Shown here piece by piece: positions 1,252 through 40,912 of a stretch of DNA of 47,369 nt. The notes beneath the pieces were generated by a model. The model was not told where the DNA came from, did no database searches, and saw nothing but the letters and a program-made list of their open reading frames with translations. Every line of letters starts with the position of its first letter. The first letter of the stretch is position 1. The position numbers and the translations under genes were made by a program. The DNA lies in assembly GCA_903865705.1 (NCBI GenBank), contig CAIPKT010000120.1, forward strand, positions 1-47,369, read 5' to 3'. This stretch comes from an uncultured Chlorobiaceae bacterium (GTDB lineage Bacteria; Bacteroidota; Chlorobiia; Chlorobiales; Chlorobiaceae).

Positions 1252-1442
1252 TTCTTATACTTTAAACCACTTCCACAATGGCATGGCTCATTCCCTGGTT
1301 CGTAGAGATACTCATAAAAATATTTGCTTTGGTTTTCGCTCGATGAATAAAAAGGGTATTTACCTTCCTTCAGCCCATCTCCAGCCTTGATTTTAGACTT
1401 TGGAAGAAAGTAAAAAAGATCATTTAGCTTGTCATGTCTCAT
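1236..1442 (-). pseudogene. hsdS: Truncated hsdS fused to a SEC-C zinc motif
   Basis: The ATG overlaps the hsdM stop (ATGA), exactly where a type I specificity gene should begin. The first ~49 residues (starting MRHDKLNDLFYFLPK, with a KYPFYSSSENQ stretch) look like the beginning of an HsdS target-recognition domain. The frame then switches to residues 50-68, ending PCHCGSG-x-KYKKCHG-C, a SEC-C zinc-binding motif normally found at protein C-termini such as SecA. Normal HsdS has about 400 residues, so over 85 percent is gone. This looks like a deletion joining the head of hsdS to the tail of an unrelated gene. The 68-residue product could still be made but cannot provide two recognition domains. 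Confidence 0.7.
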
Positions 1443-3100: not shown

Positions 3101-3103
3101 CGG

Positions 3104-4513: not shown

Positions 4514-4514
4514 G

Positions 4515-15660: not shown

Positions 15661-15662
15661 GC

Positions 15663-20985: not shown

Positions 20986-21171
20986 CTGATTCATCTCCTT
21001 GTGCGATTGAAACAGCAAACAGACAGAACAAACCAATACCTCACCGCCATAGCTACCAAAAATAGAGAAGCCAATGCGGCTCAAGAAAGGATAAGTTAAA
21101 AAATAGCGCATAAAAAGCCTTATAACCCCTTGTGCGCTATTTTAGACGTTCACCATTGCCGGCAATAGCAA

Positions 21172-21708: not shown

Positions 21709-21821
21709 AAGTAATCTCCTTTCTTAAAGGGGCTGTGTAAAGTTGATTTCACTGATTACTGATGCATTAAAATAGTAAAATAAAGCTTATTCATCAAAAC
21801 AGGAAAAAAACACGAACCCTC

Positions 21822-22970: not shown

Positions 22971-22973
22971 CTT

Positions 22974-23840
22974 TCAATCCTTACCTAAAATAATCGGCAA
23001 GCCAGATTGCCCGGAACCGATCACGACCACTTTGGCATTCGGTGATTTCGCCAGCTCACGCGTTGCCGCAATGCCTTGCCATTTGAGAATAGAAGGAGTC
23101 AAGCTCTTGTTTACCGTGTCATTGTATTGACGAATACCAATTGATTCAATCTGCAAACGCTCTGCTTCCTTTTTTGCTATCGACATGCGATAGGAATATT
23201 CCCCTTCACGTTGCTGCTGAACCATTTTCTCTTCAATAGCCATGGAGATCCGGGTTGGAAGAGTAATTGATTCAATTGGGACATCATCGATCTTTACGAA
23301 ACGCGCAGCAAGATGAGCCCTTGATTGCTCGTTGAACAGCAACTGGATAGCCTTCTGAGAGGTGTAGATTTCTTCGGGCTTGTACTGGCCGAAGAGAGTC
23401 CGGATAACAGATCGTATATCGGGGCGAATTGCTACGTTGACATAATCTGGACCTATGATCTGATGAAGCATGGGAAGTGTCGAAGGGTCAAGATAATAGC
23501 GGACGGTGTATTTTACCCGGACAGTAAGGCCATCAAACGTCAGAACATCAATCGAATCACGAAATTGCTGTTTGCGTACCGAGTATATGTACATCTTGTT
23601 AAACGGTAGAATCACATGCAGTCCCTCAGGATACACTGTATCAATCACCGTACCGGCGCCCAGCCTCCGCCATAAGATGCCACGTTGTCCGGAATGTATC
23701 GAAATAATGGTCCGGTCAAAAAAGAATACCAGAACAAGACACAGCAGTAACCCCAGTGAAATAACAGGAAGGGCATGCTGCCGAAGAAAAGATTTGCAAT
23801 GGGAGCTGAAATCTACAAGCCGTTCATGGAGAAGTTTCAT
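22974..23840 (-). CDS. SPFH/prohibitin-family membrane protein
   Basis: The start is placed at ATG 23840 (MKLLHERLVDF) for a 288-residue protein. The open frame extends to 24014 but the added part lacks sense. One membrane segment (about residues 26-45, PVISLGLLLCLVLVFFF) is followed by the band 7/SPFH domain: SIHSGQRGILWRRLG, GTVIDTVYPEGLHVILP, a LTFDGLTVRVKYTVRYYLD stretch and an RSVIRTLFGQYKPEEIYTS segment. The C-terminal coiled coil (about 205-250, QQQREGEYSYRMSIAKKEAE) is typical of oligomerising SPFH proteins. These form ring-like scaffolds around membrane complexes. Its coupling to an orphan binding protein is unusual. It is divergent from the NRPS gene, sharing its upstream region. 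Confidence 0.85.
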   Translation of the reverse strand: MKLLHERLVDFSSHCKSFLRQHALPVISLGLLLCLVLVFFFDRTIISIHSGQRGILWRRLGAGTVIDTVYPEGLHVILPFNKMYIYSVRKQQFRDSIDVLTFDGLTVRVKYTVRYYLDPSTLPMLHQIIGPDYVNVAIRPDIRSVIRTLFGQYKPEEIYTSQKAIQLLFNEQSRAHLAARFVKIDDVPIESITLPTRISMAIEEKMVQQQREGEYSYRMSIAKKEAERLQIESIGIRQYNDTVNKSLTPSILKWQGIAATRELAKSPNAKVVVIGSGQSGLPIILGKD

Positions 23841-24084
23841 TGCGTCTGTGCAGTAACCTGATTTTGGCAAAGCTCCAAACACTGCATTATAAAAAAAATT
23901 ACTGCATATAACAGCCGTCTCTTTTAATTTTAAGAGCATTATATTACTTTTATTTAGCAGTTTTACTCTTTTTTGTGGCATTTTATACTGAAGATACAGC
24001 GAACAGTTGATCATTTCTTCAAATACAAATTGTCGCGGGCAGCAGTAAAAAAGTATGCATTGATTGCAAATGATGAATGAGTTT

Positions 24085-24097
24085 AACGGTTACCGTT
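24085..24097. promoter_or_regulatory. 13-bp palindrome in the NRPS/SPFH divergent region
   Basis: AACGGTTACCGTT is a perfect inverted repeat (6-base arms around a central T) located 58 bases before the NRPS start codon, in the gap between two divergent genes. The shape suits an operator for a dimeric repressor. No regulator gene lies within the cluster, and I cannot say which family would bind it. Confidence 0.4.
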
Positions 24098-24154
24098 GCT
24101 TGAGCTATCAGTGGCGGGTTCTTCCCTGTTAACAATGACACTACTTGAGGTCAC

Positions 24155-27100
24155 ATGGGTTATTACCGTAAAATACAGGAGCATTTCAAGATATTGGCGC
24201 TCAGGCAACCCTCCTCTCCTGCACTTATTACTGATTATAACATAACCACGTATGCTGAGCTGGACGTTGCTGCCGAAAGACTTGCCATGGAACTATATAA
24301 CCGCGGCATCAACGTTCAGGAAGCAATCGGAGTGCTTACCGATCGATCGCCAGATTTACCTGCTGCATTTCTTGCGATCCTGAAAACTGGTGGAGTCTAT
24401 GTGCCAATGGTCGCAGAGTTGCCCCCCCAGCGACTGGCTAACATGGCCGAACAAGCCGGAATTCGGCGATTGATTGTTCTTGATGGCATAGAACCGCCAC
24501 CGGAGCTTGTTGATACCCTCATTGGCAATGGCTCACTCTCTCCCGGCAATGCGGTCATCAGGCCGGAGGCTTTGACGGCCGACTGGAAAGCTCCCGTCAT
24601 TTTTGATCATCAAAAACCGGGGATGACCGATCTTGCTGCTATTCTTTTTACTTCCGGGTCTACCGGAACACCGAAAGGAGTCATGATTCAGCATGATGCC
24701 TGTATCAATATGGCGCTCGGTCACATTGCTGCACATAAAATTACCAGTAAAGATCGGATTTTGCTTTCTACTTCGCCAGGTTTTATCCTTGGCTTTCGCG
24801 GTTTGTGCCTTCCTCTCGTTTCGGGAGCAGCCTATGTGCCTGTATCCCGATCCACAATCGACAATCCTGAAAGCCTGCTCGAACAGATGGGCAGGCATCG
24901 CGTATCGATTGCAATGTTTACTCCATCATATCTGCATTTGCTGAAGAGAATTGTACCAAAAGGATTGCGTTGTATCATTACTGCCGGAGAAAGACCCGAT
25001 GCTGATGACGCAAGACATTACGCTCGACAGGTGGACTACTGGAATCTGCTTGGAGCGACCGAAGCGTGTGGAGCAATTTGCATGCATCATGTCGATCCTG
25101 AAGAAGAGGGTCCGATACCCAGTGGTCGACCGTTCGCCAATACGGCTGTCTATTTGCTCGATAACGATGGCAATGAGGTGCCGAACGGCGAGGTTGGTGA
25201 ACTCCATGTTATCGGTACCGGCGTATCACCTGGATATTTGAAACAGCCTCAACTTACCGACGAGTTTTTTGTCGAAACTCGTTACGGACGTGCTTTTCGC
25301 TCACACGATCTCGCTCGATGGAACGCAAAAGGTGAACTTGAGTCTCTCGGACGGGCAGACCATGTTGTCAAAATTTCCGGCCAATCGGTATCGCTCGACG
25401 AGATTGAAGTTACGCTGCAGCGGCACCCCGGCGTGAGCAAAGCCAAGGTTTTGCATGCAAAAGGCAGAATGGTTGCCTTTGTTGAATGTCCGGAACCCGA
25501 TCAGTTACAACATGTTGACTGGCGTGAATTGCTCCTGAAAACACTCCCGTCGTACATGATTCCTGCCCGGGTTTCCGTGCTGTCGAAAATACCGGTCAAC
25601 TCTTCGGGCAAGGCCGATCAACTGGCTCTGCAGGAAATCGCTGATTCCCTTTTCAATGAAATGTCTGAACATGAAGGCGGAACACCTCCGCAAGGCAAAC
25701 TTGAAACTGCAATAGCCGGGATATGGGAAGATTTGCTTGATGTGCGGCCTATTTTCAGGGAACATAATTTCTTTGCCTCTGGAGGAACAAGCCTGCTTGC
25801 GATTGCCGTCAGTCAACGCCTGCATCTGCTTGGCTACAACGTCCCGGTACAGATGGTGCTGACAGCTCTGACGGTAAAAGCTTTGGCTGAACACATCGAC
25901 GCCATGCAGCAACAACAACCCGGCATGGGCAACGATATTCCGGTTGAGAATATTGCCACTGCTGACCAGGAGGATTTCTGGATCGCCTCGGAAATCGGTT
26001 TGGCACCGGCAGCCTCACATATTGTGCGTCTTCTGCATGTTCGCGGGCGGACGTTACTGCCGGATGTCTGGCAATCAGCATGGATTCGCCTGCTTGATCG
26101 TCATGCCGCCCTTCGAACGGCATTGTATCGGGATGAAAACGGCACCCTCCGATGGAGGACTGTTGCCTCTCATGAACTCCCCCCTGACTCATTGCTTCGA
26201 CTTGATCACTGCCCTTCAATAGAGACTGCTCGCAAGATAGCTGCAATCTGGGCTAACGAACGATTCCAGCTCACAACTCCCCCCCTTGCCAGAGCAGGCA
26301 TAATCAATGTTGATGAGGGAAATGAAACACTTCTCTGGCTGGTCTTCCACCATTGCGTCGTGGACGGCACATCGGCCCGATTGATACAGGATGATTTGCT
26401 TGCCCTGCTCGGCGAGCGAGCGTTGCCGCCGGCACCTGACGGCATCGCAATGGCCAGCATCGCTGAACAACAGTACCTGGTTTCTGAACAAGCTACACGC
26501 GACCGGCAGTTCTGGCTGAGCAGGCTCGATGCTCTGGCTGATCGCGAAAGCGGCGCCTTTACTGAGTACGTGACTGAACGTCAACGTCCAGCGTTACCCA
26601 GCGGACAAGGGGCATCACCCCTGACGGAGCACCTTGATGCCGGAACGTTTGACAGGCTTGCTCATCTTGCCAAAAGGCAAGGAATCGGGCTTCACGCGCT
26701 GTTGCTTGCCATCCTCGGAGCTGAAATCAGGCGACGTTGCGGACGCAGTGACATCATGGTTGGCAGCGGCATATCCATTCGCCCGGCAGGGGGAGAGAGC
26801 GCAATAGGCCACTTCGTCAACGTCCTTCCCGTTATTCTTTTGAAGATGGGCGATCTCCCCTTCTCGTCGCTTCTTCAAGAAACACAGTCAGCGCTTACCG
26901 AAACGGTTGGCCACGCCGCCTACCCGGCAGGCATTCTCTATCGCGAGTTCCGGCAACGACATCCTGAACTCCGCTCACATTCACGCACGTCGCTTTTCGA
27001 TATCGCCCTGACGGCAATTCCTCCAAGGATCATTGTAGACCGGGATGCAGGCCTTACTCTTGAGCCTTTGTCATTGGCTGGAGAACTCGAACACCCGGCT

Positions 27101-30100
27101 GCAGGTCTCGACCTTTCGTTCAGTCATGAGCCATATCCAGCAAACGGTGGCGGACTGAATCTTATATTGATCTGGAATCCGGATGTTTGCTCGAAAGAGA
27201 GTGCTCAGGCTTGGCTTTCTTCTTTCGCAGCCTGGGCTCGCTGGCTGGCCGAAGACCCTGAGCGGATCAAGCAACCTCTTCCAGCATTGCTGCCGCATGA
27301 AACGGTACTGCTTCAACACTGGGAACAAGGGCCAAAGCTGCACCGCCCCAATCGACGCAGCCACGAACTCTTTGAAGCACTTGCGGACCGTCATCCAGAC
27401 CGACCGGCAATTATCAGTCGCGACCACATCGAAACCTTAAAAGAGATCGAAGTCCGGGCAAATGGCCTTGCCCATGAGCTCATAAAAAAAGGGGTCGAAA
27501 GGGGAAACACCATTGGAGTACTCACCTCCGACCCGGCAAATATCCCGGCAACGGTACTGGGGATATGGAAAGCATGCGCAACCTATCTGCCTCTTGCGCA
27601 TGAACTCCCTGCATTGCGGCTGGCAAAAATGGCCACTGATGCCGGAGCGATGCACCTCATCGTGCTTGACGGGCTCACGATCCCGCATGTTCTGGAAAAA
27701 GCTGTCAAAACCATTATCCGTCCTGAGAAGTGTTCACCCTCAGATCGGCGTCCAGATAAAGCGGGTTCACCCGATGATATTGCCTACATCATCTACACAT
27801 CAGGCACAACAGGCACTCCGAAAGGCGCCCCCATTTCCCATGCCTCGTATATCAACACCATTCTTGGAGTGACAGAGAGAATAGGTGTCAAAGAGAATGA
27901 CCGCATGTCATTGGCAGCTACGGTTGGTTTCGATGCCTCCCTGTGGGAACTCGGACACGGGTTGTTGAATGGAATTGCCCTGGTACCGGTATCTCTGGCA
28001 CTCCGGGATGACCCCTGGCAACTGAAGCCATACTACCGTGAACTCGGGGTCACCATCGCCTTTCATGCTCCATCATACCTGCGCGTCAGCGAAAAACTTC
28101 CTTTTGAGGGATTGCGCATTCTGCTCACTGGCGGAGAAGCTCCTAACTTGCGTGACGTACGGCATCATGCCAGCAAGCTTGCATTCTGGAACTTTTACGG
28201 ACCGACAGAAGCTACCATTGTTGTTTCAGGCGGATTAATCGTGGGCAATCACGATTCGGATACTCCCCTGACAGTTGGTCGGCCGCTTCCCAACACTGAA
28301 ATTTCGATTCGCCATAATGATGGTTCTCAAGTGCCGCCAGGTGTTGAGGGCGAGCTGTGGCTTGGTGGTATCGGGATTCAACATGGATACCTGAACCAGC
28401 CCGGTCTGAGCGCAGAGCACTTTGTGTCCACTCAGGAAGGGCTCTTCTATCGCTCAGGAGACTACGGACGCTGGACGGCAAATGGCGAAATAGAAATCAC
28501 TGGGCGTATCGACCAGCAGATTAAACTGAACGGCCAGCGGGTTGAGCTTGGTGAAATCGAACAGATATTATGCACGAGTCCAGAGGTTGCGAATGCTGTC
28601 GTTCTTGTTGAAGAGCTTGATATGGGCGTCAAAGTGCTCAAGGCGTTTGTGCAGCCTGAAAACGATGCGGTGCCAACGGAAGCCAGGTTGAGAGCATTTC
28701 TTGCCGAACACCTATCTGCCTATATGATCCCTTCGAGTATCATGACGGTTCCAGTGATACCGCTTACTCCTGCTGGAAAAGTTGACCGGAATGCCCTGAG
28801 CAACCATGCGAAACAGCAGGATAAGGAGGCTGTTCGCGAGATGCCTCAAAATCCCATTGAAAAGCGTATCGCCGCCATCTGGTCGGATCTGCTCAGCCTT
28901 CCTGTTGCGCGCAACGACAACTTCTTTGCTCTTGGGGGGAACAGTCTGCTTGCTGTAACGCTGGCACATCGAGTGACCGAAATGCTGGGGCGGCAGGTGT
29001 CGGCTCGAACGCTTTTTGCAGCTCCGACAATTGCGGCGTTTGTTGAAAAAATCGGATTATCGCCCGCTATTCTGGAGCGGAAAGAGATCGCTCCCAAAAC
29101 TGATTTTGCCTCGGAAGGTGAAAAAGAGTTCTGGATTGCGGAATCGGCAGGACTTGATACTCGAAGTTTCACTATTCCTGTTCACTACCTTGTTACAAGA
29201 GATGTTGTGCTTGATCGTTGGCAGAATGCCTGGTCAACGATGGTGATGCGCCATGATGGATTGCGCACCTTTTTTGAAAATGATGATGCCGGCCAGTTGA
29301 GACGCAAAGTCGCACCAAAAATTGATGCCAGGCTGGAATTCACCGTTACATCCTCTGCCGATGAAGCCTTGGCCCATATCAGGCGACATCAGCTTATTCC
29401 CTTTTCAATGAATGTTGCCCCGCTCTGGCGTGCCGGCCTTGTCGAAGCGATTGATGACAACAAGCGTTTTTTCTGGCTTGCTCTTCATCATGCCGTTGGT
29501 GATGGACAATCGGTCGGCACCCTGTTCAACGAGCTGGAAATACTGCTTGATGAAGGTGTTTTGCCCTCAGAAGGTAACAGCGGAATGGTGTTTGCTGCCC
29601 GGGAGCAGTCATACCTTGCCTCGACAGACTCCATCAATGACACTGAATACTGGATCAGTCTGTTACAACAAGTACCTGCTGCCGCCTTTGATGAATGGCC
29701 TCTTGATGCAGCTCGTTCATCAAAAAAACCGACAGGCAGCCATCGCCTTGAGGTACTTCTCAGTCACCAGACAAGTGAGAATCTGAAAGCTCTTGCTCGC
29801 AGTCACCATTCGAGTCTTCACTCGGTGATACTTACTCTGCTTGCAATTGAAGTCATGCGTCGCACCGGCCGGTCCGACATCATAACAGGTACTACGGCAT
29901 CCCTCAGGGAGTCTGCATCAGACTCGCAAATAATCGGTTACGGGGTAAACATGCTGCCACTGCACCTGAAACCCGATGCGCAGCAATCTTTCGGTAGCCT
30001 CTTGCAAGCTACACAGAAAAGCCTTGCTGAGGCCCTGCAACATGCCCGTCTGCCGTTTGCCCGAATATACCGTGCATACTGGAATAACCATCCCCACCTG

Positions 30101-33100
30101 CGTCAACCTCTACGCTACCCTCTTTTCGACATCGCTGTAACCGAAAACCCTGCTCCTCGAAAAGAGGGCTCAGCCCGTCGTTTTACGAGGGCAACCTCAG
30201 CAAAAGAGAGTATACGGTACGAACGCACTGATGCTTCTCCAGGGCAGGATATGGTCCTGATCCATGAAAATCTGGATAACGATGGACTTCTCCTGCAATG
30301 GCAGGTCAATGCGGCAGTCTACTCTGAAGAAACGGCGCGAACATGGCTGGAATCTTTGGTCAGATGGGCTGGCTGGCTTGCTGAAGATCCTGAACATGCG
30401 GGCCAAACCTTGCCGGTTCTGCTTCCGGAAGAAGAAAGACAGCTTGCCAACTGGGAGCGGGGAGCAACTGTCGACAGGCCACCATTACGCTTTCATGAAC
30501 TCTTTGAAATGATGGTTGACCGGCCGGATCAGGCTGACTGCCCTGCTGTAATCACTTCAACAGATGCACTCTCCTATCGGGCCCTTGATGAGGAAGCCAA
30601 CGCCATCGCCCACAGCCTTTTGCAACGCGGAGTTGGATGCGGCAGCATTGTCGGCGTTCTGACTGGTCGGTCTCCGCATCTCCCTGCCACGGTTTTGGGT
30701 ATATGGAAATCAGGTGCAATTTATGTACCACTTGCATCCGACCTGCCACAGGAAAGACTCTCCTTTATGGCTGGCGATGCTGGCATATCACAGTTGGTCG
30801 TTCTTGATGGCATTGCCGTTCCGGAACTGCTTTCTGCAGGACGGCCCGAAGCATTTCGACCAGAGACGTTATCAGAATCATTTCGTCAGAACCATTCCAG
30901 AAGATTGTTCATTATCGGCAAACCCGACGACACGGCCTACATCCTGTATACTTCGGGTTCATCCGGCAAACCAAAGGGAACACTGATCAGTCATCGCAGC
31001 TACGTGAACATGATACTCGGCGCCACAGCGATATTGGATCTCAATGCCAATGATCGCATTCTGATGTTTGCATCCCCATCTTTTGACGTCTCTCTCTCCG
31101 ATATAGGGGTACCGCTCGCCTGCGGCGCTGCGATTTGCCAGGCACCTTTGGACGTCATTGAATCGCCAAATCGTTTTCTTGAGTTCCTGCGAGAATGTTC
31201 TGTTACCGTCGCAGACATCACGCCGACCTATCTTGGACTGTTCGAAGGTGACCCGCTTCCGCCTTCACTGCGTGTGCTGATAACTGGTGGTGAACCGCCG
31301 GTAGAAGCCGATGTAATAAGATATGCATCAAAACTTCGCTATTTCAATGCTTACGGCCCTACTGAAAATACGATTACCAGTACAATGGGGCTCCTTAAGG
31401 GTGACGAGCAGCGTTTTTTGTCGGCTGGCAGGCCGTTGCCGAATACCAGTATCCAAATCTGCGATAATAATGGACGTCCTCGAGTACCAGGGGTTGCCGG
31501 TGAGATCTGGCTTGGTGGAATTGGTATCAGTCAGGGTTATCTGAACCGCCCGGATCTGACGCAGTCCAGTTTTTTGGAGAGCGCACAGGGCCGTCAATAC
31601 CGTACCGGCGATCTTGGTCGCTGGCATCAGGATGGAACCATTGAAATCATCGGTCGAGTTGATGATCAGGTGAAATTGAATGGCATACGTCTTGAACTGG
31701 GTGAAATCGAGTATGCGCTGGCCTGCCACCCGGCAATCTCGCAGGCTGCTGTTGTTCTCATTGAACAGGATGGAAAATCGAAGAGTCTTTGGGGTGTGGT
31801 TCGACTCTCTCCGGGAGAGCGAATGCCTGAAATGGGCGAATGGAAAGCATACCTCATGGAACAACTCCCCTCCTTCATGATTCCTTCCGGTTTGATTCCT
31901 GTACCATCAATCCCGTTGACCGCTTCAGGCAAGGTTGACCGGACAGCTCTTATTGCATTGGTGGAAGATCGTCCTTTGCCATCAGGATTGACTCCGCCGA
32001 GAGGTGAACTGGAGTGTTGCATTGCTGAAATATGGACTGACGTATTGAAACGAAGTCCGATTTATCGTGAAGACAACTTCTTTGCACTCGGCGGGCATAG
32101 TTTGCTGGCGATTTCAGTGGCCCAACGCCTCGAAAAATCACTTAACCGTAACGTATCTGCCCGTGAACTTTTCGCCGAACCGACGCTTGCTGGTTTTGCC
32201 GATAGAGTTCATGATATGCAGACTCCTTTACCGACAGTCAACAGTGTGTCCGACCAGGCTACAGCAGGCCAGCGTGAGTTCTGGACAGCCGAACAGGCGG
32301 GGTTCGACACCAGCGGCTTCAATATCCCTCTTACTCTTATGGTTAAAGGAGAGGTGCCGTCCTATAAACGCTGGAGAGCAGCATGGCATGAGCTGATTGC
32401 AAGACATGATTCCCTGCGCACCAGTTTTTGTGAGGACGAATCCGGTGTTTTGCGTCGAGTTGTCGTTGCGCAACCGGATAAAACTTTGGAACTGCACGTC
32501 ATAGCGTCTCTTGAAGAAGCACGTACGTACATCAGCAGTCGCCAGGCGGAACCCTTTGCCATGGGCAACCCGGTACTCTGGCGCGCAGGCTTGACCAGGA
32601 TCGTTGACGGGAATCAAACAATTTTCTGGTTTGTCATGCATCATGCTGTGGGAGACGGTATTTCGCTTGGTATTCTCACCGATGAACTGTCCGCACTGCT
32701 CAGGGGGGGAATCCTGACTCCGCCAGGAGTAGGATTTGACCGGTCAGCGGCAAATGAAACAGCATATCTTGATAGTCAAAATGCTCTTATCGACGCCGCC
32801 TACTGGAAAGGCATCATGAGTGACCTTTTAAAAAGAAGAGCTGATGCCCTTGATGAATGGCCTCTCGACAAACCACGGCAAAATGGCCGGTCAGCCTCTT
32901 CATGTACTGGAAGCCATTGTTTCAGAACCCGTATCGAACCCGCAACAGCCAGTGCACTGCGGAGCCTTGCACAGCAAAACAAGGCAACTCTCCATGCGCT
33001 TATGCTGGCAATGCTCGGGCTGGAAGTAGAACGTCGCACAGGACGTTCCGAATTTCTGCTGGGCACCGCGGCATCAACCCGCCAGTCAAATGCCGAGATG

Positions 33101-36100
33101 CGAACCATAGGCTACTTTATCAACATGCTCCCACTGGTGTGCCCTGTTTCCAAATCGCGTTCACTCGATGCTTTGGTGCAAGCCATACAGCAAAATCTTG
33201 GGGAAGCACTCCAGCACTCTCGATACCCTTTTGCTTGTATCTATGGTGATTTCCGGATGAACGCAACGCATACAAACCATCCTGGCCGCTATCCGCTTTT
33301 TGACATTGCCGTCACTGAGAACCCCCCGCTCACGGTCGCTTCCGAAGCAGATCTCTTTCTTGCCGGTTTTGCTCCTCCTGAGCCTGATAAAGTAAGCTAC
33401 GAACTGCGACGCAATGCTCCAGCGCAGGATCTTGTTCTTGTACACGAGGGGCTGGCAGATGGCAGCCTTATGCTGACATGGTATGTCAACGCCGCAATCT
33501 ATACAAAGGATACTGCCCATACCTGGTTTGACTCGCTTATCGGCTGGATGCGGTATCCGGGGAAAAATCCTGATAAAAAAGGGATGCCGCTTCCTTGGCT
33601 GCTGCCAGAGGAAGAAGAGTTGCTCAATGAATGGCAAAATGGTCAAAACCTTCCTCTGCCGGCAAACTCTTTCCCTGACCTGTTCCGCAGGCTTGCAAAG
33701 AGTTACCCGGATCGGCCCGCAATGGTTACTGATGGCTGCATACAGAGCTATGAAATGGTGAATAGTCGTGCCGATGCACTTGCCAGAGCCCTGCTTAACC
33801 TTGATGTCATGCGCGGAGAAACCGTTGGAGTTTTCACGGAACGATCGGCCGCACTGCCGGAAACCGTTCTTGCCATCTGGAAGGCTGGAGCCTGCTACCT
33901 GCCACTGACTGCCGATCTGCCCGATGAGCGACTCGCCTTCATGGCACGGGATACGAATCTGAAAATCATCATAGCGCTTGACGGCCTTTCCCTACCGCCT
34001 GAACTTGCAGGCTGTCACTTCAAGACTTTACGGCCGGAAAATATTCCAGCCGGAGCAGGTGACTCACCCGGTATCGACAAAACCATCAAACCGGATGATC
34101 CTGCCTATATTATCTACACATCCGGTTCAACCGGAATGCCCAAAGGGGTTAAACTTCATCACAAAGGGCTGCTGAATCTTGGTATTGGAGAAGCTGAAAT
34201 TCTCGGCATAAGAGCTGACGATCGGCTCATGCAGATTTCTTCACCATCTTTTGATCTGTGGATGAGCGACCTTGTGATAACATGGTCAACCGGTGCGGCA
34301 TTGGTACCAGTCAGGCGCGAAGAGATGAATGATCTGTCAGGTATGCACTCCCTCATTCAGCGACGCGGCGTCACCGTCGCCACAATGTCGCCTTCCTATC
34401 TTCGCCTGTTCGAACAGGCTGATTTTCCTGGTGTAAGGATTCTGATGACCGTCGGGGAGGCACCTGTCGAGGATGATGCCCGATTCTACGCAACAAGGCT
34501 TTCATATTTCAATGGCTATGGCCCTTCAGAGTGTACGGCTGCATCGGCCGTTGGCTTTATTCATCCTGATGGACAGCCGATCACGATAGGTCCTCCTATG
34601 CCCAACACAACAATATCGGTCGTTGACGACTGCTGCAAACCGCTGCCTCCGGGTGTTACCGGTGAAGTCCTGATTGGCGGGACGGGACTTGCCGTCGGTT
34701 ATATCAATCGTCCAGATCTGACCGCTGCCGCTTTTGTGAATGTATCGGGCGAACGACGCTACAAAACCGGCGATCTGGGCCGCTGGCTCAGGACAGGTGA
34801 GCTGCAAATCCTTGGCCGAAAAGACACTCAGGTAAAATTGCACGGGCAACGAGTGGAACTTGGTGAGATCGAGCATCACATAGCGGCCTATCCAGGGGTG
34901 CTGCAGGCCGTCACCATCCTGGAAACACTGGCTGACCACACACAAGCGCTCCGATCATTCGTTACGCTTGATCCTCAGATAAAGACTCCCACCTGGGCGG
35001 AATGGTCAACATACCTGTCAGTGTCTCTCCCCTCATATATGATTCCGGCATCCATATCCCAAATCTCAGCAATACCCCTCACACCAGCCGGCAAAGTTGA
35101 TCGTCAGGCACTGCTCGACCTTGTCAATGAAACACCGCAAACAAAGAACCATCAAGAGCGAACACAACCGCAGACTACTATCGAAAAAAGGGTATCGGAA
35201 GTATGGGCTGAGCAGCTCCGTCATCCGATCATCACCAGAGAGGATAATTTCTTTGAAATCGGGGGTGACAGTCTGAGAGCCATTGCGGTCATAAGCCGGC
35301 TCCGCCGCGAGTTTGAATGTCAGGTGAATAACCTGTACGAACATCCGGTTCTTTCAAGTTTTGCTCTTTACTGTCGGCCACGTCCTGATCACCTGCGATC
35401 GGTTATCGGCAAACTCTGTACTGAATATGAGCGCGATCACCAAATTCGTGCACAAATAGAGCGTGAACGCGAAAATGCGTTGCACCCCCAACGAGCAGAA
35501 TATGAAACAAGGATACTTTCTGATCTGAAGCGTGATCTTTTGCCTTGCCACTCATACCGGCACGTACTGCTCACTGGAGCGACCGGCTATCTCGGAAGCT
35601 ACCTCTTGCGTGAGCTTCTTGCCGACCCGGCAATCAAGGTGACCGTGTTAGTGCGCAGCACAGACAACCAAACGGCACAAAGCCGTCTTGATAATATACT
35701 GAGCGGATATTTCGGAAATGAGGAAGGTGGATCGTTACGAAACAACCCTCGTCTGCATGTACTGGCAGGTGATCTGCGACATTCAAAATTCCTTCTCTCC
35801 CTGCATGATTACAATCAGCTCGCCGGTACCATTGACGCCATCTATCATTGCGCGGCCAATGTAAACCATATTGGTCTCTATCACGATTTTCTTGCTGACA
35901 ATGTAACTGCTACAAGTCATCTTCTGACTTTGGCTGCACAACAAAAGCAAACTCCTGCTGATTTTCATTTTATCTCCACCCTTTCAGTCGCTGGAAGCGG
36001 CTTGCCTAACGAGTTCAGGCTCTTTACAGAGTATGATTTTGCTCCGGAAGAACAGGATGAAAACTATTACGTCCGTACCAAGCAGGAAGCCGAACGACTG

Positions 36101-36682
36101 GTAATCGCATCACGCCAGGAATTGGCCAACAGTTGCATTTACCGCATTGGGAACATCTCCTTTGCAACAGATAGCACAAAATTACAGCAAAATATTGCCT
36201 ATAATGCCTTTTTCAGGCAACTGGTTGCCTTCATGCGCCTTGGAGTTATCCCGCTGGAACTTGACGCATCGCTTTGTTATGTTGATGTGGTCGCAAAAGC
36301 GCTCGTTACACTTGCAAACAGTAACGTTTTGACGAATGAGATCCACCACATTACGACGACACGACGGGAGCGACTGGCCAGCATTATCCTCTCAACCGAC
36401 GGGATTGCCGATAAAATCCGCGGCTGTGACTTCAGCACTTTTCTGAAACGGGTGCAGGCGGCAATCGATGAACCGCAGATGGAATTGGCACTGGCCGATA
36501 CCGTTGAAAATTTTGGACTTCAAACAGGGCGTTCCCTCATGACCCTTCTGCACGGAGTGGAGATTGCCTCAGATCGAACGCAGCGCATGCTTGATAAATT
36601 TGGCATCACCTGGCCTGAAATTCCTCAGGCAGGACAGAATGCTCTCTTGAGCGCTGCCATGAAAAAGGGGAGAGACCATTGA
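24155..36682 (+). CDS. Four-module nonribosomal peptide synthetase with terminal reductase
   Basis: This 4175-residue enzyme has the order A1-T1-C2-A2-T2-C3-A3-T3-C4-A4-T4-R. Adenylation motifs TSGxTGxPKG lie near residues 166, 1214, 2266 and 3322. The carrier serines that take phosphopantetheine are about 546 (GGTS), 1597 (GGNS), 2649 (GGHS) and 3706 (GGDS). Condensation motifs start at 732 (HHCVVDG), 1778 and 2829 (both HHAVGDG), all intact. No epimerisation or thioesterase domain is seen. The end is an NAD(P)H thioester reductase with LLTGATGYLG near 3806 and catalytic Tyr3972-x3-Lys3976, so the product leaves as an aldehyde or alcohol. By-eye pocket residues of A2 (DAWFLGFIV-K) resemble leucine codes. 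A1 has Ile211 where Asp normally grips the amino group. GAGG precedes the ATG. The exporter genes are coupled to its stop. The product is unknown. Confidence 0.97.
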   Translation: MGYYRKIQEHFKILALRQPSSPALITDYNITTYAELDVAAERLAMELYNRGINVQEAIGVLTDRSPDLPAAFLAILKTGGVYVPMVAELPPQRLANMAEQAGIRRLIVLDGIEPPPELVDTLIGNGSLSPGNAVIRPEALTADWKAPVIFDHQKPGMTDLAAILFTSGSTGTPKGVMIQHDACINMALGHIAAHKITSKDRILLSTSPGFILGFRGLCLPLVSGAAYVPVSRSTIDNPESLLEQMGRHRVSIAMFTPSYLHLLKRIVPKGLRCIITAGERPDADDARHYARQVDYWNLLGATEACGAICMHHVDPEEEGPIPSGRPFANTAVYLLDNDGNEVPNGEVGELHVIGTGVSPGYLKQPQLTDEFFVETRYGRAFRSHDLARWNAKGELESLGRADHVVKISGQSVSLDEIEVTLQRHPGVSKAKVLHAKGRMVAFVECPEPDQLQHVDWRELLLKTLPSYMIPARVSVLSKIPVNSSGKADQLALQEIADSLFNEMSEHEGGTPPQGKLETAIAGIWEDLLDVRPIFREHNFFASGGTSLLAIAVSQRLHLLGYNVPVQMVLTALTVKALAEHIDAMQQQQPGMGNDIPVENIATADQEDFWIASEIGLAPAASHIVRLLHVRGRTLLPDVWQSAWIRLLDRHAALRTALYRDENGTLRWRTVASHELPPDSLLRLDHCPSIETARKIAAIWANERFQLTTPPLARAGIINVDEGNETLLWLVFHHCVVDGTSARLIQDDLLALLGERALPPAPDGIAMASIAEQQYLVSEQATRDRQFWLSRLDALADRESGAFTEYVTERQRPALPSGQGASPLTEHLDAGTFDRLAHLAKRQGIGLHALLLAILGAEIRRRCGRSDIMVGSGISIRPAGGESAIGHFVNVLPVILLKMGDLPFSSLLQETQSALTETVGHAAYPAGILYREFRQRHPELRSHSRTSLFDIALTAIPPRIIVDRDAGLTLEPLSLAGELEHPAAGLDLSFSHEPYPANGGGLNLILIWNPDVCSKESAQAWLSSFAAWARWLAEDPERIKQPLPALLPHETVLLQHWEQGPKLHRPNRRSHELFEALADRHPDRPAIISRDHIETLKEIEVRANGLAHELIKKGVERGNTIGVLTSDPANIPATVLGIWKACATYLPLAHELPALRLAKMATDAGAMHLIVLDGLTIPHVLEKAVKTIIRPEKCSPSDRRPDKAGSPDDIAYIIYTSGTTGTPKGAPISHASYINTILGVTERIGVKENDRMSLAATVGFDASLWELGHGLLNGIALVPVSLALRDDPWQLKPYYRELGVTIAFHAPSYLRVSEKLPFEGLRILLTGGEAPNLRDVRHHASKLAFWNFYGPTEATIVVSGGLIVGNHDSDTPLTVGRPLPNTEISIRHNDGSQVPPGVEGELWLGGIGIQHGYLNQPGLSAEHFVSTQEGLFYRSGDYGRWTANGEIEITGRIDQQIKLNGQRVELGEIEQILCTSPEVANAVVLVEELDMGVKVLKAFVQPENDAVPTEARLRAFLAEHLSAYMIPSSIMTVPVIPLTPAGKVDRNALSNHAKQQDKEAVREMPQNPIEKRIAAIWSDLLSLPVARNDNFFALGGNSLLAVTLAHRVTEMLGRQVSARTLFAAPTIAAFVEKIGLSPAILERKEIAPKTDFASEGEKEFWIAESAGLDTRSFTIPVHYLVTRDVVLDRWQNAWSTMVMRHDGLRTFFENDDAGQLRRKVAPKIDARLEFTVTSSADEALAHIRRHQLIPFSMNVAPLWRAGLVEAIDDNKRFFWLALHHAVGDGQSVGTLFNELEILLDEGVLPSEGNSGMVFAAREQSYLASTDSINDTEYWISLLQQVPAAAFDEWPLDAARSSKKPTGSHRLEVLLSHQTSENLKALARSHHSSLHSVILTLLAIEVMRRTGRSDIITGTTASLRESASDSQIIGYGVNMLPLHLKPDAQQSFGSLLQATQKSLAEALQHARLPFARIYRAYWNNHPHLRQPLRYPLFDIAVTENPAPRKEGSARRFTRATSAKESIRYERTDASPGQDMVLIHENLDNDGLLLQWQVNAAVYSEETARTWLESLVRWAGWLAEDPEHAGQTLPVLLPEEERQLANWERGATVDRPPLRFHELFEMMVDRPDQADCPAVITSTDALSYRALDEEANAIAHSLLQRGVGCGSIVGVLTGRSPHLPATVLGIWKSGAIYVPLASDLPQERLSFMAGDAGISQLVVLDGIAVPELLSAGRPEAFRPETLSESFRQNHSRRLFIIGKPDDTAYILYTSGSSGKPKGTLISHRSYVNMILGATAILDLNANDRILMFASPSFDVSLSDIGVPLACGAAICQAPLDVIESPNRFLEFLRECSVTVADITPTYLGLFEGDPLPPSLRVLITGGEPPVEADVIRYASKLRYFNAYGPTENTITSTMGLLKGDEQRFLSAGRPLPNTSIQICDNNGRPRVPGVAGEIWLGGIGISQGYLNRPDLTQSSFLESAQGRQYRTGDLGRWHQDGTIEIIGRVDDQVKLNGIRLELGEIEYALACHPAISQAAVVLIEQDGKSKSLWGVVRLSPGERMPEMGEWKAYLMEQLPSFMIPSGLIPVPSIPLTASGKVDRTALIALVEDRPLPSGLTPPRGELECCIAEIWTDVLKRSPIYREDNFFALGGHSLLAISVAQRLEKSLNRNVSARELFAEPTLAGFADRVHDMQTPLPTVNSVSDQATAGQREFWTAEQAGFDTSGFNIPLTLMVKGEVPSYKRWRAAWHELIARHDSLRTSFCEDESGVLRRVVVAQPDKTLELHVIASLEEARTYISSRQAEPFAMGNPVLWRAGLTRIVDGNQTIFWFVMHHAVGDGISLGILTDELSALLRGGILTPPGVGFDRSAANETAYLDSQNALIDAAYWKGIMSDLLKRRADALDEWPLDKPRQNGRSASSCTGSHCFRTRIEPATASALRSLAQQNKATLHALMLAMLGLEVERRTGRSEFLLGTAASTRQSNAEMRTIGYFINMLPLVCPVSKSRSLDALVQAIQQNLGEALQHSRYPFACIYGDFRMNATHTNHPGRYPLFDIAVTENPPLTVASEADLFLAGFAPPEPDKVSYELRRNAPAQDLVLVHEGLADGSLMLTWYVNAAIYTKDTAHTWFDSLIGWMRYPGKNPDKKGMPLPWLLPEEEELLNEWQNGQNLPLPANSFPDLFRRLAKSYPDRPAMVTDGCIQSYEMVNSRADALARALLNLDVMRGETVGVFTERSAALPETVLAIWKAGACYLPLTADLPDERLAFMARDTNLKIIIALDGLSLPPELAGCHFKTLRPENIPAGAGDSPGIDKTIKPDDPAYIIYTSGSTGMPKGVKLHHKGLLNLGIGEAEILGIRADDRLMQISSPSFDLWMSDLVITWSTGAALVPVRREEMNDLSGMHSLIQRRGVTVATMSPSYLRLFEQADFPGVRILMTVGEAPVEDDARFYATRLSYFNGYGPSECTAASAVGFIHPDGQPITIGPPMPNTTISVVDDCCKPLPPGVTGEVLIGGTGLAVGYINRPDLTAAAFVNVSGERRYKTGDLGRWLRTGELQILGRKDTQVKLHGQRVELGEIEHHIAAYPGVLQAVTILETLADHTQALRSFVTLDPQIKTPTWAEWSTYLSVSLPSYMIPASISQISAIPLTPAGKVDRQALLDLVNETPQTKNHQERTQPQTTIEKRVSEVWAEQLRHPIITREDNFFEIGGDSLRAIAVISRLRREFECQVNNLYEHPVLSSFALYCRPRPDHLRSVIGKLCTEYERDHQIRAQIERERENALHPQRAEYETRILSDLKRDLLPCHSYRHVLLTGATGYLGSYLLRELLADPAIKVTVLVRSTDNQTAQSRLDNILSGYFGNEEGGSLRNNPRLHVLAGDLRHSKFLLSLHDYNQLAGTIDAIYHCAANVNHIGLYHDFLADNVTATSHLLTLAAQQKQTPADFHFISTLSVAGSGLPNEFRLFTEYDFAPEEQDENYYVRTKQEAERLVIASRQELANSCIYRIGNISFATDSTKLQQNIAYNAFFRQLVAFMRLGVIPLELDASLCYVDVVAKALVTLANSNVLTNEIHHITTTRRERLASIILSTDGIADKIRGCDFSTFLKRVQAAIDEPQMELALADTVENFGLQTGRSLMTLLHGVEIASDRTQRMLDKFGITWPEIPQAGQNALLSAAMKKGRDH

Positions 36683-38352
36683 ACCTGCTTCGCCTCCTGC
36701 AATCTATCGGTGACAAACCTCTCCGCAAGCTTATTGCCTTTGCTTCAGCCTCTGCATTAAGCACAACACTTGTGCTTGCAGTGGTTACCATGGCAGCCCA
36801 AAAAATCGATAAAACGAAGGAGGAATTTGTCGATTTACCGGTTGCAGCACTCTTTTTGCTCTGTTTACTTGTTTATGTGATCTATGAAAGCCGATTGGTT
36901 GAGCAGTTTGCGGCTGACATTGAAGAGGCGATAGACCAACTGCGGATGAAGCTTATCAATCGGGTACGCCATGCGGATTTGTGGCAACTTGAGCATTTTG
37001 GCCAAAGCAGACTGTTCGGGAACATCACCCAGAGCTGTAAAATTATTTCATCGAATTCCCAATACCTTGCCCTTGCAACACGTTCGGTTATCCAAATCGC
37101 TCTGATACTTATCTATATTGCCCTGGTGTCGATGGTTTCATTTCTGCTGTTGACACTTCTTCTGGCTGCGGCCGCAACCACTTACTACCGGCTTGGCCTC
37201 TCTTTGGAGAAATGCCAGGAAGAGCTCTCCCTGGATGAGGCAAAACTCTTTGAATGCGTCTCTGATCTCCTTGATGGATTCAAGGAACAGCGACTCTGCA
37301 GCAAACGCAGCAATGCTCTTGGTGATGAGTTTAATGAGCTGTCAAGCCGCATGGTAGAGGCTCGCAGCGAACTGCATCGACAAAGCTGGGCACAGTTTGT
37401 GTTCGGCGAGTCAATGTTCAACCTGATGCTTGGGCTTGTGGTTTTTGTTGTCCCGATTTATTCCCCTTCTGACAGAACCGAGCTGGTAAAAATATCGGCA
37501 GCGGTACTCTTTATGGTGCCCCCTATTTTTGGACTGATGCAGTCCTTGTCCGTATTGCGTGCAGCAAAAGCTGCAGCGGGACATATGATGGGACTCGACA
37601 CAGAACTCGCAAATATTGCAGAGCAAAGCAGTGAGGAACCTGCCAAACCGGCAGCCAGCAACGGCAACAACAACTTTAATGTCAACTTCAGCGAAATCCG
37701 GATGGCTGACCTGGTCTTTGCCTACCCTGCTCCTGGCGGTGAAATCCCCTTCACACTTGGACCCCTGAACGTCCGAATCCTGCGGGGCGAAGTAATTTTC
37801 ATTACTGGTGGTAATGGCTCAGGCAAGTCGAGCTTCATCAAACTGTTGACCAGTCTCTATCATCCTGAGCGTGGCCGACTATTGAAAGACAATACGGTAG
37901 TTTCTGCACCCCGCTTCGCAGAACATCGCGCACTAATGGCCTCAGTCTTCTCTGACTTTCACCTGTTCACCCGGCTCTATGGCATTGGTGAAGTAGACTC
38001 TATGGCTGCAGAAGAGCTCCTGCGCTGGGTGGAGATGGACCATATCGTCGGGTTCAAAGAGAACCGATTTACCCGGACAGAACTGTCGACGGGACAGCGC
38101 AAACGACTTGCCCTTGTCGCAGCATTGCTTGAAAAAAAACCAATCCTGATTCTTGATGAATGGGCTGCCGACCAGGACGCTTTCTTCAGAAAGAAATTCT
38201 ATCGAGAGATCATTCCGGAACTGAAGCGTCGGGGAATGACCATTATTGCCGTGACTCATGATGACCGCTATTTTGATGCTGCAGATCGCCGTCTCCATCT
38301 TGAGGAGGGCCAACTTAGAGAACTGCAGACAAGCAAGGAGGAAAGACCATGA
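36679..38352 (+). CDS. ABC exporter half-transporter 1 (cyclic-peptide-export type)
   Basis: The TTG start overlaps the NRPS stop (TTGA), so this 557-residue protein is made in step with the synthetase. The N-terminal ~320 residues are a membrane domain with about six segments; the C-terminal part is an ATPase with Walker A ITGGNGSGKSS near 375, signature LSTGQRKRLA near 469, Walker B ILILDEWAADQD near 491 and H-loop VTHDDRYF near 525. The DEWAADQD-x-FFRKKFY run is typical of SyrD/YojI-type exporters of peptides. It probably moves the NRPS product out of the cytoplasm, paired with the next gene. Confidence 0.93.
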   Translation: MNLLRLLQSIGDKPLRKLIAFASASALSTTLVLAVVTMAAQKIDKTKEEFVDLPVAALFLLCLLVYVIYESRLVEQFAADIEEAIDQLRMKLINRVRHADLWQLEHFGQSRLFGNITQSCKIISSNSQYLALATRSVIQIALILIYIALVSMVSFLLLTLLLAAAATTYYRLGLSLEKCQEELSLDEAKLFECVSDLLDGFKEQRLCSKRSNALGDEFNELSSRMVEARSELHRQSWAQFVFGESMFNLMLGLVVFVVPIYSPSDRTELVKISAAVLFMVPPIFGLMQSLSVLRAAKAAAGHMMGLDTELANIAEQSSEEPAKPAASNGNNNFNVNFSEIRMADLVFAYPAPGGEIPFTLGPLNVRILRGEVIFITGGNGSGKSSFIKLLTSLYHPERGRLLKDNTVVSAPRFAEHRALMASVFSDFHLFTRLYGIGEVDSMAAEELLRWVEMDHIVGFKENRFTRTELSTGQRKRLALVAALLEKKPILILDEWAADQDAFFRKKFYREIIPELKRRGMTIIAVTHDDRYFDAADRRLHLEEGQLRELQTSKEERP

Positions 38353-39977
38353 GATTATTTAAAGCAGTTGTACGGGAAATTCCGGAAAATCTCAAATCAC
38401 TCTTTTTTATGACCGTTTTGGCTGCAGTTGCAACAATGTCGCTCGTTGCGCTGGTTTCAACCGCTGCCAAAGAGGGAGGAGGAGGGCAAGTGAGTGGGCG
38501 TCTTATGTTGATGTTCGCAATAACCGTGATACTTTTCCATGTCACACACATCTATACGCTGGTGACAGCTTCTCGAGATACTGAGCGGCTGATACACAAG
38601 CTGCGGGTCGGCCTGTTCAATCTTATCCGTCGAACAGACCTGGTAACAATTGAAAAAATTGGTCACTCCGATCTTCAGGGAGCTCTCACCCAGGACACGC
38701 AAATTCTTGCCGAGGTTCTGCCAATGCTGGTGATCGGGTTTCAGCAGGCTGTAATGTTGCTCTTTCTGGCAGCCTACCTTGCATGGCTTTCCCCTTTCGC
38801 CTGTATCCTTGCCTTCAGCCTTGCCGGATTAACCGTCGCAATCCGCTTTTCCCGCGTTAAGGGGTTGCGGACGCTGATGCAATCGGCTGACAGAGCCGAA
38901 AAACGGGTTTTCGATGGGCTTGCCGAACTTCTGCACGGGTTCAAAGAAATCAGGATGAGCAACCCGCGTGCTGACGATTTGACCGGTGCTCTTGCTGATG
39001 CATCTCATGAATCACGGATAACCAGCTCATTGCTGAAAGCGCAATGGGGACGAAATTATGCCGTCATCGAAGCGATGTTATTTTCGCTGGTAGGCTTGAT
39101 GGTTTTCGTCGTGCCCCTGTTTGTTGCAGGCTTTCATCAGGTGGTCTTGCCAGCCACGATCGCGGTGCTTTTTATCTCTGGACCTGTGAGTACCGTTTCC
39201 TTTGTCACTCCTCTTGTTACAAAAGCTGAACTGGCACTTGAAAACATTGAAAAAATCAAAAACAAACTGACTGCCGCGGCAAAAACAGCATCAAGTGAAG
39301 AAACAGGTTCACTTGAAAAATCACCCTTGACGATTGCCCTTAAAAGAGCAGAGCTTTCTTTCAGGGATGAAAACGGAATGCCCTTATTCAAAGTCGGACC
39401 GCTCACGGCTGAATTCCATGCCGGTCAAATCACCATGATTACCGGGGGGAACGGCTCAGGCAAGTCAACCCTTCTGCGCATGCTTACTGGGCTGATTCCA
39501 CTGGATTCAGGCTCTCTTATTGCCGATGGAGTTGAGCTGCAAACCGAACAAATGCAGGATTACCGAAACAGATTTTCTGCCATTTTCTCCGACTTTCATC
39601 TTTCACAGCGCCTCACATCCATTGATGAGCCAAATCCGGAAATAATCAGCATCATGCTCGAACGTTTCGGCATGCAGGATAAAGTGACCTTGACCGGTGG
39701 TTCCTTCAGCACTATAGATCTTTCTGCCGGCCAGCGGAAGCGACTTGCATTTATAGTCGCAGAACTTGAGGACAACCCGATTATTGTGCTTGACGAATGG
39801 GCCGCAGACCAGGATCCATACTTCCGCCGCATTTTCTACGAAGAACTGTTACCTGATCTCAAGGCACGTGGCAAGATCATCATATGCGTAACCCATGATG
39901 ATCGATGGTTCCACCTCTCCGACAAAATGTATAGAATGAATGAAGGCCAGATAGAAGAACCTCGCACCATAATATAA
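38349..39977 (+). CDS. ABC exporter half-transporter 2 (cyclic-peptide-export type)
   Basis: The ATG overlaps the previous stop (ATGA). The 542-residue protein has the same architecture: a membrane domain to about residue 300, Walker A ITGGNGSGKST near 364, signature LSAGQRKRLA near 458, Walker B IIVLDEWAADQD near 481 and H-loop VTHDDRWF near 513. Both ATP sites look competent in both half-transporters. Different but related partners, translationally coupled, suggest a heterodimer, whereas single SyrD-like exporters usually act as homodimers. A gap of about 100 bases separates it from the phosphopantetheinyl transferase. Confidence 0.93.
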   Translation: MRLFKAVVREIPENLKSLFFMTVLAAVATMSLVALVSTAAKEGGGGQVSGRLMLMFAITVILFHVTHIYTLVTASRDTERLIHKLRVGLFNLIRRTDLVTIEKIGHSDLQGALTQDTQILAEVLPMLVIGFQQAVMLLFLAAYLAWLSPFACILAFSLAGLTVAIRFSRVKGLRTLMQSADRAEKRVFDGLAELLHGFKEIRMSNPRADDLTGALADASHESRITSSLLKAQWGRNYAVIEAMLFSLVGLMVFVVPLFVAGFHQVVLPATIAVLFISGPVSTVSFVTPLVTKAELALENIEKIKNKLTAAAKTASSEETGSLEKSPLTIALKRAELSFRDENGMPLFKVGPLTAEFHAGQITMITGGNGSGKSTLLRMLTGLIPLDSGSLIADGVELQTEQMQDYRNRFSAIFSDFHLSQRLTSIDEPNPEIISIMLERFGMQDKVTLTGGSFSTIDLSAGQRKRLAFIVAELEDNPIIVLDEWAADQDPYFRRIFYEELLPDLKARGKIIICVTHDDRWFHLSDKMYRMNEGQIEEPRTII

Positions 39978-40078
39978 GTGGTATAAATAATCCTCTGCAT
40001 GCAGCACACGATGAATTGAAGATGAAATCAAGACAACCAGCCGGCCATATCCATGAACAAATGGGTTGTGAGGTGCAT

Positions 40079-40762
40079 ATGCATATGAACCATCATCCTG
40101 CAGTCAGGTTGTGGACGATTAATCTAAATGGTTTGAACACTCCTCCTCCCAACTGGCTCGAACTGCTTGATGAAGAAGAGCTTTTGCATTGCCAGCGGTT
40201 TCGACAAGAAAAGGATCGCCTTGCCTATATTGCAGCACACGCCCTCCTCCGCTGCACACTCAGTCGTTCACTCAAGATTCCTCAGTCATCCCTGATTATA
40301 GCCCACGACAAAAGGGGAAAGCCCTTCATCAATATGCCGGAAAGCAGAGCCATTGGAATAAGTCTCTCTCATACGGCAGGAATGGTTGCCGTCGTTCTCA
40401 GCGAAGCAGGAAACGTCGGGGTTGATGTAGAAGCCGTCAATCAACAACTCATTCATCAGGATGATTTGTCTGCTTTTGGAGTGAGTCATGAAGAAGCCGA
40501 AGACCTTGCATCAATCGCTGAGCCCGCAAGAAGTGAGCTGTTTTTCGATTTATGGACAACCCGAGAAGCAGTTGCCAAGGCTGATGGACGAGGTCTTTCA
40601 CTCCCCTTCTCTCTCATACAAATTGATCGCTCAAAAAACATGGCGACAATTCAGGAAAATGGAAACTCTCCCGAAAGTCATTGGCGTTTGTGGCGCAAAC
40701 GCCCCTCCCCTCTTCACCGGTTAAGTGTGGCTTGGTCGAAAGAGTGCAGTGAATTACCCTAA
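40079..40762 (+). CDS. Sfp-type 4'-phosphopantetheinyl transferase
   Basis: From ATG 40079, with GAGG 5 bases before it, this 227-residue enzyme transfers phosphopantetheine from CoA to carrier-protein serines and so switches on the NRPS. The family motifs are a GVDVE at 114-118 that binds magnesium and a WTTREAVAKADGRGL segment at 159-173 that replaces the usual W-x-x-KEA-x-x-KA pattern. An RFRQEKDRLAYIAAHALLR segment (about 40-58) is typical of Sfp/HetI types. Longer in-frame starts exist at 40016 (TTG) and 40022 (ATG), without clear ribosome sites. Being in the cluster, it is almost certainly the activator of the four carrier domains. Confidence 0.9.
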   Translation: MHMNHHPAVRLWTINLNGLNTPPPNWLELLDEEELLHCQRFRQEKDRLAYIAAHALLRCTLSRSLKIPQSSLIIAHDKRGKPFINMPESRAIGISLSHTAGMVAVVLSEAGNVGVDVEAVNQQLIHQDDLSAFGVSHEEAEDLASIAEPARSELFFDLWTTREAVAKADGRGLSLPFSLIQIDRSKNMATIQENGNSPESHWRLWRKRPSPLHRLSVAWSKECSELP

Positions 40763-40912
40763 CTAATTTTATTAAAGTCTCATACGTGTAGCCGACTGCG
40801 GATGTAAAATGAAGCCCCAATCAACATTTTGATTAAAAGGGTTATAATGTTAAAATGAGTCATGTTTATAGCCACCATGTTCCATAAACCCATAATTAAG
40901 GAGAACCCGATT

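Follow-up and report, generated by a model that had tools for sequence, protein, structure and literature searches.

The window analysed here, a stretch of 47,369 nucleotides, is contig C120 of a metagenome-assembled genome of 226 contigs and 2.48 Mb with an estimated contamination of 3.46%. It carries a cassette of about 20 kb in the interval between parA (13271) and a small cytochrome c gene (40862–41248). The cassette encodes a large nonribosomal peptide synthetase (NRPS), two ABC half-exporters and a phosphopantetheinyl transferase (PPTase) on one strand. A trio of genes for membrane and periplasmic proteins lies upstream of the synthetase and is divergent from it (Table 1).

Table 1. Features of the cassette, with positions in the window.
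Feature	Position	Strand	Evidence
Variable cassette, parA–cytochrome c site	21077..40809		Homology to empty/deleted Chlorobium sites ends or resumes here
DUF697 small membrane protein, 178 aa (trio gene 3)	21172..21708	-	PF05128, 34 bits vs cut-off 27.7
Type-1 periplasmic binding protein (PBP), N-terminal membrane anchor (trio gene 2)	21822..22970	-	PF13458, 126.7 bits
SPFH/Band 7 membrane protein (trio gene 1)	22974..24014	-	PF01145, 93 bits
Four-module NRPS, A1-T-C-A2-T-C-A3-T-C-A4-T-R, terminal thioester reductase	24155..36682	+	Pfam domains; motifs; orthologues in 15 other Chlorobium genomes
A1 loading domain, code ILRMIALGAK	24176..25624	+	Ile at Asp235 in LgrA alignment
A2 domain, code DAWFLGFIVK, predicted Leu	27392..28804	+	Leu code comparison
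A3 domain, code DVSDIGAITK, predicted Arg	30512..31954	+	Arg cluster comparison
A4 domain, code DLSTMVGAAK, residue Y	33683..35134	+	Invariant in nearly all orthologues
Terminal thioester reductase (R) domain	35492..36679	+	PF07993 (NAD_binding_4), 146.9 bits; TGATGYLG; YVRTK
ABC half-exporter 1 (ABC1), SyrD/PvdE type, TTG start	36679..38352	+	TIGR01194, 288.1 vs cut-off 286.2
ABC half-exporter 2 (ABC2), SyrD/PvdE type	38349..39977	+	TIGR01194, 312.2 vs 286.2; ortholog in 15/86 family genomes
Sfp-type 4'-phosphopantetheinyl transferase	40016..40762	+	PF01648 (ACPS) and PF22624 (AASDHPPT_N) above cut-off

The synthetase is one intact frame of 4175 aa. Pfam placed four AMP-binding, three Condensation, four PP-binding and one NAD_binding_4 domain on it, all well above cut-off, and matched no thioesterase in the protein. 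The three HHxxxDG motifs (732, 1778, 2829) are intact, as are the serines of all four carrier-domain GGxS motifs and, in the R domain, the nucleotide motif and the Y-x3-K motif. Its three condensation domains are the only ones in the genome. Complete A/T/C modules followed by a C-terminal reductase, with no thioesterase, mark this protein as an NRPS with predicted reductive release. R domains yield either an aldehyde (two electrons) or an alcohol (four electrons). Since the line ends in a thioester reductase, the product is predicted to leave in one of these two forms. R-domain relatives of solved structure are MxaA, the R domain of AusA and 6vtj. Because they cover both kinds of release (AusA, MxaA), we do not claim one form over the other, and the sequence does not choose between them.

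ABC1 shares 4 nt with the end of the NRPS gene, and ABC2 shares 4 nt with ABC1. The NRPS/ABC1 overlap was missing in the six other genomes compared; the start context of ABC1 was conserved in five of these, and a conserved GGAGAG Shine-Dalgarno sequence precedes its TTG codon. The two half-transporters are adjacent but only about 31% identical, so they probably act as a heterodimer. No outer-membrane export gene was found in the cassette. The PPTase scored 53.7 for ACPS (cut-off 25) and 37.3 for AASDHPPT_N (cut-off 27), which assigns it to the Sfp type, and it is the only Sfp-type match in its genome. Open reading frames, Pfam, TIGR01194 and intact motifs thus bear out the preliminary description of a four-module NRPS, two overlapping ABC exporter genes and a PPTase at the positions in Table 1. 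That description had also treated 24155–40762 as a complete unit. The reading as an NRPS served by dedicated exporters and a PPTase stands, but the R domain, the unusual A1 domain and the trio (21172–24014) had been overlooked. Because the trio belongs with the cassette, the unit begins about 3 kb further left than first drawn.

The trio adjoins the synthetase in 14 genomes. In other carriers, the DUF697 proteins beside the NRPS are 77–93% identical (dN/dS 0.08) and the adjoining SPFH proteins 81–93%; orthologues place the conserved SPFH start probably at 23840. Among the 86 family genomes, the PBP gene was present in 15 of the 16 NRPS carriers and in none of the 70 non-carriers; across 394 genomes of the phylum, no match to the protein came from another genus. 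In G081 the trio and the NRPS lie apart; in G043, where the contig with the NRPS stops short of that region, no trio was found. By sequence and predicted structure, the PBP has the type-1 fold of LivK and 4q6b; the structure model is moderate (pLDDT 77.5) and served for the fold, not the pocket. In LivK, Ser79, Thr102 and Glu226 are presumably the residues of the amino-acid clamp. The alignment puts D116, N139 and F262 of the PBP at these positions, so the LivK clamp is not present, and all three residues are invariant in 15 orthologues. The leucine-binding proteins 4mlc and 4q6b, by comparison, retain Ser and Thr at the first two clamp positions.

Several neighbouring genes were considered as cassette members and rejected. 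The cytochrome c gene persists at the empty sites of cassette-free genomes, and the FISUMP, MT, DUF134 and OsmC genes, which persist there too, are flanks. The cobB/SMC/Mre11 block (14317–20424) occurs in G051 without the NRPS and is missing from the NRPS-bearing G068. These cobB-like, SMC-like (1171 aa) and Mre11-like genes form an independent cargo that G051 and G081 share. PADLOC matches of the SMC-like protein are weak (LmuB, 41 bits), and the SMC-like and Mre11-like genes are possibly a defence ATPase–nuclease pair. Type I restriction-modification genes hsdM and hsdR (1439–7313) stand on either side of a gene for an AlbA_2/RecG-C-like protein (3104–4615), which shares 101 nt with hsdR; no hsdS was recognised within the window. 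Beside the site on the right, a Fib_succ_major (FISUMP) domain protein is encoded at 42142–42840, with homologous DNA at the same site in G079 and G054. The whole parA–cytochrome c interval (13271–41248) is an integration hotspot that holds different cargo in G000, G051, G068 and G081.

A search with the C-terminal 1033 aa of the synthetase found orthologues in 16 of the 86 family genomes, i.e., in at least 16 Chlorobium species including that of the window; the G081 copy ends before the R domain. One carrier is the isolate Chlorobium ferrooxidans DSM 13031 (NZ_AASE01000011.1). Its orthologous locus, together with a gene for the FMO antenna protein in the same assembly as the cassette, identifies the host as a green sulfur bacterium, which upholds the earlier assignment against an origin in another phylum. 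A contaminating contig might be suspected in a fragmented assembly with a measurable contamination estimate, the more so as a Geobacter-labelled genome holds an orthologue. However, the orthologue lies at the same place in Chlorobium relatives, the parA, cytochrome c, DUF134 and OsmC flanks are conserved in Chlorobium, and with the isolate locus and the FMO gene added, this explanation is effectively refuted.

The Geobacter-labelled genome (L027, JANYBN010000112.1 / G394:C169) carries a synthetase orthologue of 60% identity. The same contig encodes a stand-alone C domain, a radical-SAM protein, an SHMT-like PLP enzyme and an ABC pair (69%). Among 76 family genomes, G394 was the only one with a close exporter, which the other 75 lack at this identity, and the genes next to its copy look non-Chlorobial by eye. 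The copy reflects either transfer between phyla or a misbinned contig, and we rank neither above the other.

Chlorobium is usually regarded as metabolically streamlined, and the locus had initially been called notable because green sulfur bacteria have few secondary metabolite genes. In its genome it is the only condensation-domain locus and has the only Sfp-type PPTase. Across the family it is no rarity: 16 of the 86 genomes have an orthologue, 33 of the 86 have some NRPS-like match, and several carriers hold a further NRPS/PKS line at that position. Given the orthologues, including that of C. ferrooxidans, the locus is not unique to this genome. Near-identical loci with a known product would have told against the preliminary description; comparison with Chlorobiaceae genomes supplied the orthologues but no known product. 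Neither a product nor a description of the locus was found in the freely accessible literature on NRPS and antiSMASH in Chlorobi/Chlorobium.

The carriers differ in what accompanies the synthetase. In the window, in G068 and, to the extent that its contigs reach, in G043, the locus is compact and the PPTase gene follows ABC2 immediately. In most other carriers, the cassette is joined by a radical-SAM-like gene (CxxxCxxC seen by eye, no Pfam match), a condensation domain that stands alone and another assembly line of NRPS or NRPS/PKS type. This second line is either a TubC-docked NRPS/PKS with a methyltransferase and a thioesterase or consists of two further large NRPSs. On the C. ferrooxidans contig (L037–L039; G024:C37 26358–50028), the second NRPS/PKS line adjoins the cassette and has the PPTase position in common with it; this line comprises TubC_N docking, KS-DH-KR, methyltransferase and TE. 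Lines of this type also occur in G028, G031, G051, G052 and G066.

Gain and loss of the cassette can be followed between close relatives. G059 and G068 are sisters on the rpoB tree; the flanks are 52 bp apart in G059 and 20.5 kb apart in G068, where the insert contains DUF697, PBP, Band7, NRPS, ABC, ABC and PPTase genes. The parA–cytochrome c site is empty in G052, G054, G059, G066 and G079. Two genomes keep scars at this site. G081 has lost NRPS-ABC-ABC but retains the trio, along with ~60 bp from the end of the PPTase gene; G051 retains DUF697 and a ~48-bp stretch of the PBP gene. Both have a different version of the synthetase elsewhere in the genome. These empty sites and deletion scars indicate that the cassette is mobile or losable. 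It lies beside nif genes in G066 and G074, which are sisters by rpoB, yet their synthetases are only 63% identical and fall into different clades. The conflict between the NRPS and rpoB trees, the scars and the varied sites together argue that the cassette has been gained, lost and replaced within the genus. A PPTase fragment in a genome without the NRPS (G058:C11:29169–29450; 56% identical, internal stop) is likely the relic of a lost cassette. Against the G068 orthologues, dN/dS was 0.08–0.21 for the NRPS, ABC and PPTase genes, and these low values point to purifying selection on every cassette gene; the value for the cytochrome c gene came from a mismatched pair and was disregarded.

To predict the product, specificity codes were taken at GrsA positions 235–517, with the frame set by the A4, A5 and A10 motifs. 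Asp235 contacts the alpha-amine of the substrate. This residue and Lys517 are kept by all alpha-amino-acid-activating domains (PMC12283262). The A1 domain has Ile where both LgrA A domains have Asp, and its code is kept in 15 genomes. As A1 lacks Asp235, its predicted substrate is a non-alpha-amino carboxylic acid, which would cap the N-terminus. A2 agrees at 8 of 10 positions with the commonest Leu code, DAWFLGNVVK (PMC12283262). A3 fits the published Arg cluster (D, A/V, E, D, I/V/L, G, A, V/I, T/D, K; PMC12283262) at 9 of 10 positions, the exception being Ser for Glu239, and the A4 code falls outside that cluster. Across the 15 other Chlorobium orthologues, the A1–A4 codes are nearly unchanged while protein identity drops to 51% (G043). 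In the Geobacter-binned copy, A2–A4 are the same except for one residue each in A2 and A4. The simplest reading of such near-invariance is one conserved product, predicted from these codes to be an N-capped X-Leu-Arg-Y aldehyde or alcohol. For residue Y, we know of no counterpart to the A4 code.

Other products were weighed against this prediction. PvdE-type siderophore exporters, which we take to belong to TIGR01194, raise the idea of a siderophore or metallophore exported in PvdE style, since both half-transporters pass that model; the R-terminated MxcG of myxochelin biosynthesis is among the NCBIfam matches of the synthetase, and the carriers include the iron-oxidising C. ferrooxidans. Yet the MxcG score is 1307 against a cut-off of 2300, and the cassette has no TonB receptor, ferrisiderophore reductase or catechol/hydroxamate gene. 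Aryl-acid A domains carry Asn235, which A1 does not have, and the A3 code is that of Arg rather than hydroxy-Orn. We reject the siderophore as improbable. Ring closure between the aldehyde and an N-terminal amine, giving a macrocyclic imine, a pyrazinone or a pyrazine as in nostocyclopeptide, lugdunin or aureusimine, is a somewhat stronger candidate but still an unlikely one. Cyclisation is common for aldehydes released by R domains (PMC7586950), and AusA is among the best NCBIfam matches (NF047350), although its 1463.8 bits miss the equivalog cut-off of 2500. Without Asp235 in A1, the first unit should have no alpha-amine to close the ring; a beta-amino starter would leave room for it. The linear, N-capped X-Leu-Arg-Y aldehyde or alcohol is the form that we carry forward, and by analogy with aeruginosins and spumigins it would most likely be a reversible covalent protease inhibitor.

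The substitutions in the PBP may be read together with this prediction. An acidic Asp at the carboxylate-binding position would suit a cationic ligand that has neither a carboxylate nor an alpha-amine free, as would be the case for the predicted peptide. We tentatively propose that the trio is an inner-membrane receptor or immunity complex for the NRPS-made peptide aldehyde, with the PBP re-tooled for a capped, Arg-containing aldehyde. If so, it could be a protective or sensory module of a kind that had not been linked with NRPS clusters before, a suggestion of the same tentative standing. The co-occurrence could instead be hitch-hiking on a shared cassette, with the trio a functionally unrelated solute sensor. 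We regard this as possible, though less than probable. In its favour, G081 still has the trio at the old site although NRPS-ABC-PPTase has been deleted there, with a different NRPS copy elsewhere, and in G051 DUF697 survives alone. Against it, the PBP occurs in no NRPS-free family genome and in no other genus among the 394 phylum genomes, and the trio accompanies the NRPS at different sites, both at parA–cytochrome c and beside nif genes.

The observed domain order, intact motifs, conserved codes, exporter and PPTase families, trio linkage and cassette gain and loss can be assembled into one model. The PPTase would activate the four carrier domains, A1 would load a carboxylic acid without an alpha-amino group as the N-cap, and modules 2–4 would add Leu, Arg and residue Y. 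The reductase would then free the N-capped X-Leu-Arg-Y aldehyde (or alcohol), and the ABC half-transporter pair would presumably carry it over the inner membrane. In the periplasm, the anchored PBP and the SPFH protein would probably bind or contain the product for self-protection, retention or sensing. Taken as a whole, with the roles of the trio and of protease inhibition included, we hold this account of a horizontally exchanged cassette that makes and exports such a peptide to be moderately probable.

Herein, Chlorobium is found to carry a natural-product cassette that is exchanged and conserved and whose product can be predicted in specific, testable terms. As the isolate C. ferrooxidans DSM 13031 carries it, the compound can be sought directly. 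The sharp record of gain, loss and scars offers a clean natural experiment across closely related species. The trio is the feature that most deserves follow-up: its function is the most novel point of the locus, and the co-inherited PBP and SPFH genes may represent a new class of module by which a cell perceives reactive peptide aldehydes or protects itself from them.

Among known systems, the aeruginosin and spumigin synthetases of cyanobacteria (PMC3765200) offer the closest parallels in logic. They too form a compact cluster whose assembly line ends in an R domain, which in their case frees a peptide aldehyde. Their product is a short, linear, Arg-containing peptide with a non-amino carboxylic acid at the N-terminus, features predicted here as well. 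In contrast, their C-terminal residue is Arg (argininal), whereas Arg is predicted third here and Y (DLSTMVGAA) last, and their third residue is Choi or Pro-type (AerG code DVHICAFLVK) where A3 reads DVSDIGAITK. The Chlorobium line is also a single protein, with no KR in the loading module and with other accessory genes. From its sequence, the synthetase would thus work like the aeruginosin/spumigin enzymes but fails two of their defining features, the Choi-type third residue and the C-terminal Arg. The aureusimine synthetase AusA shares the A-T-...-T-R layout and R-domain homology, but it has two modules rather than four and cyclises via a free amine. The exporters resemble the TIGR01194 cyclic peptide exporters of the SyrD/PvdE type, from which they differ as two adjacent half-transporters with no outer-membrane partner in the cassette. 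The PBP shares its fold and 27–28% identity with LivK-type leucine-binding proteins (1usg, 4q6b); unlike LivK, it is membrane-anchored, its clamp is replaced by invariant residues, and the cassette has no Liv permease genes. The nearest likeness is within the genus, as the loci of C. ferrooxidans DSM 13031 and 14 other Chlorobium genomes have the synthetase, exporters and trio in common with the window.
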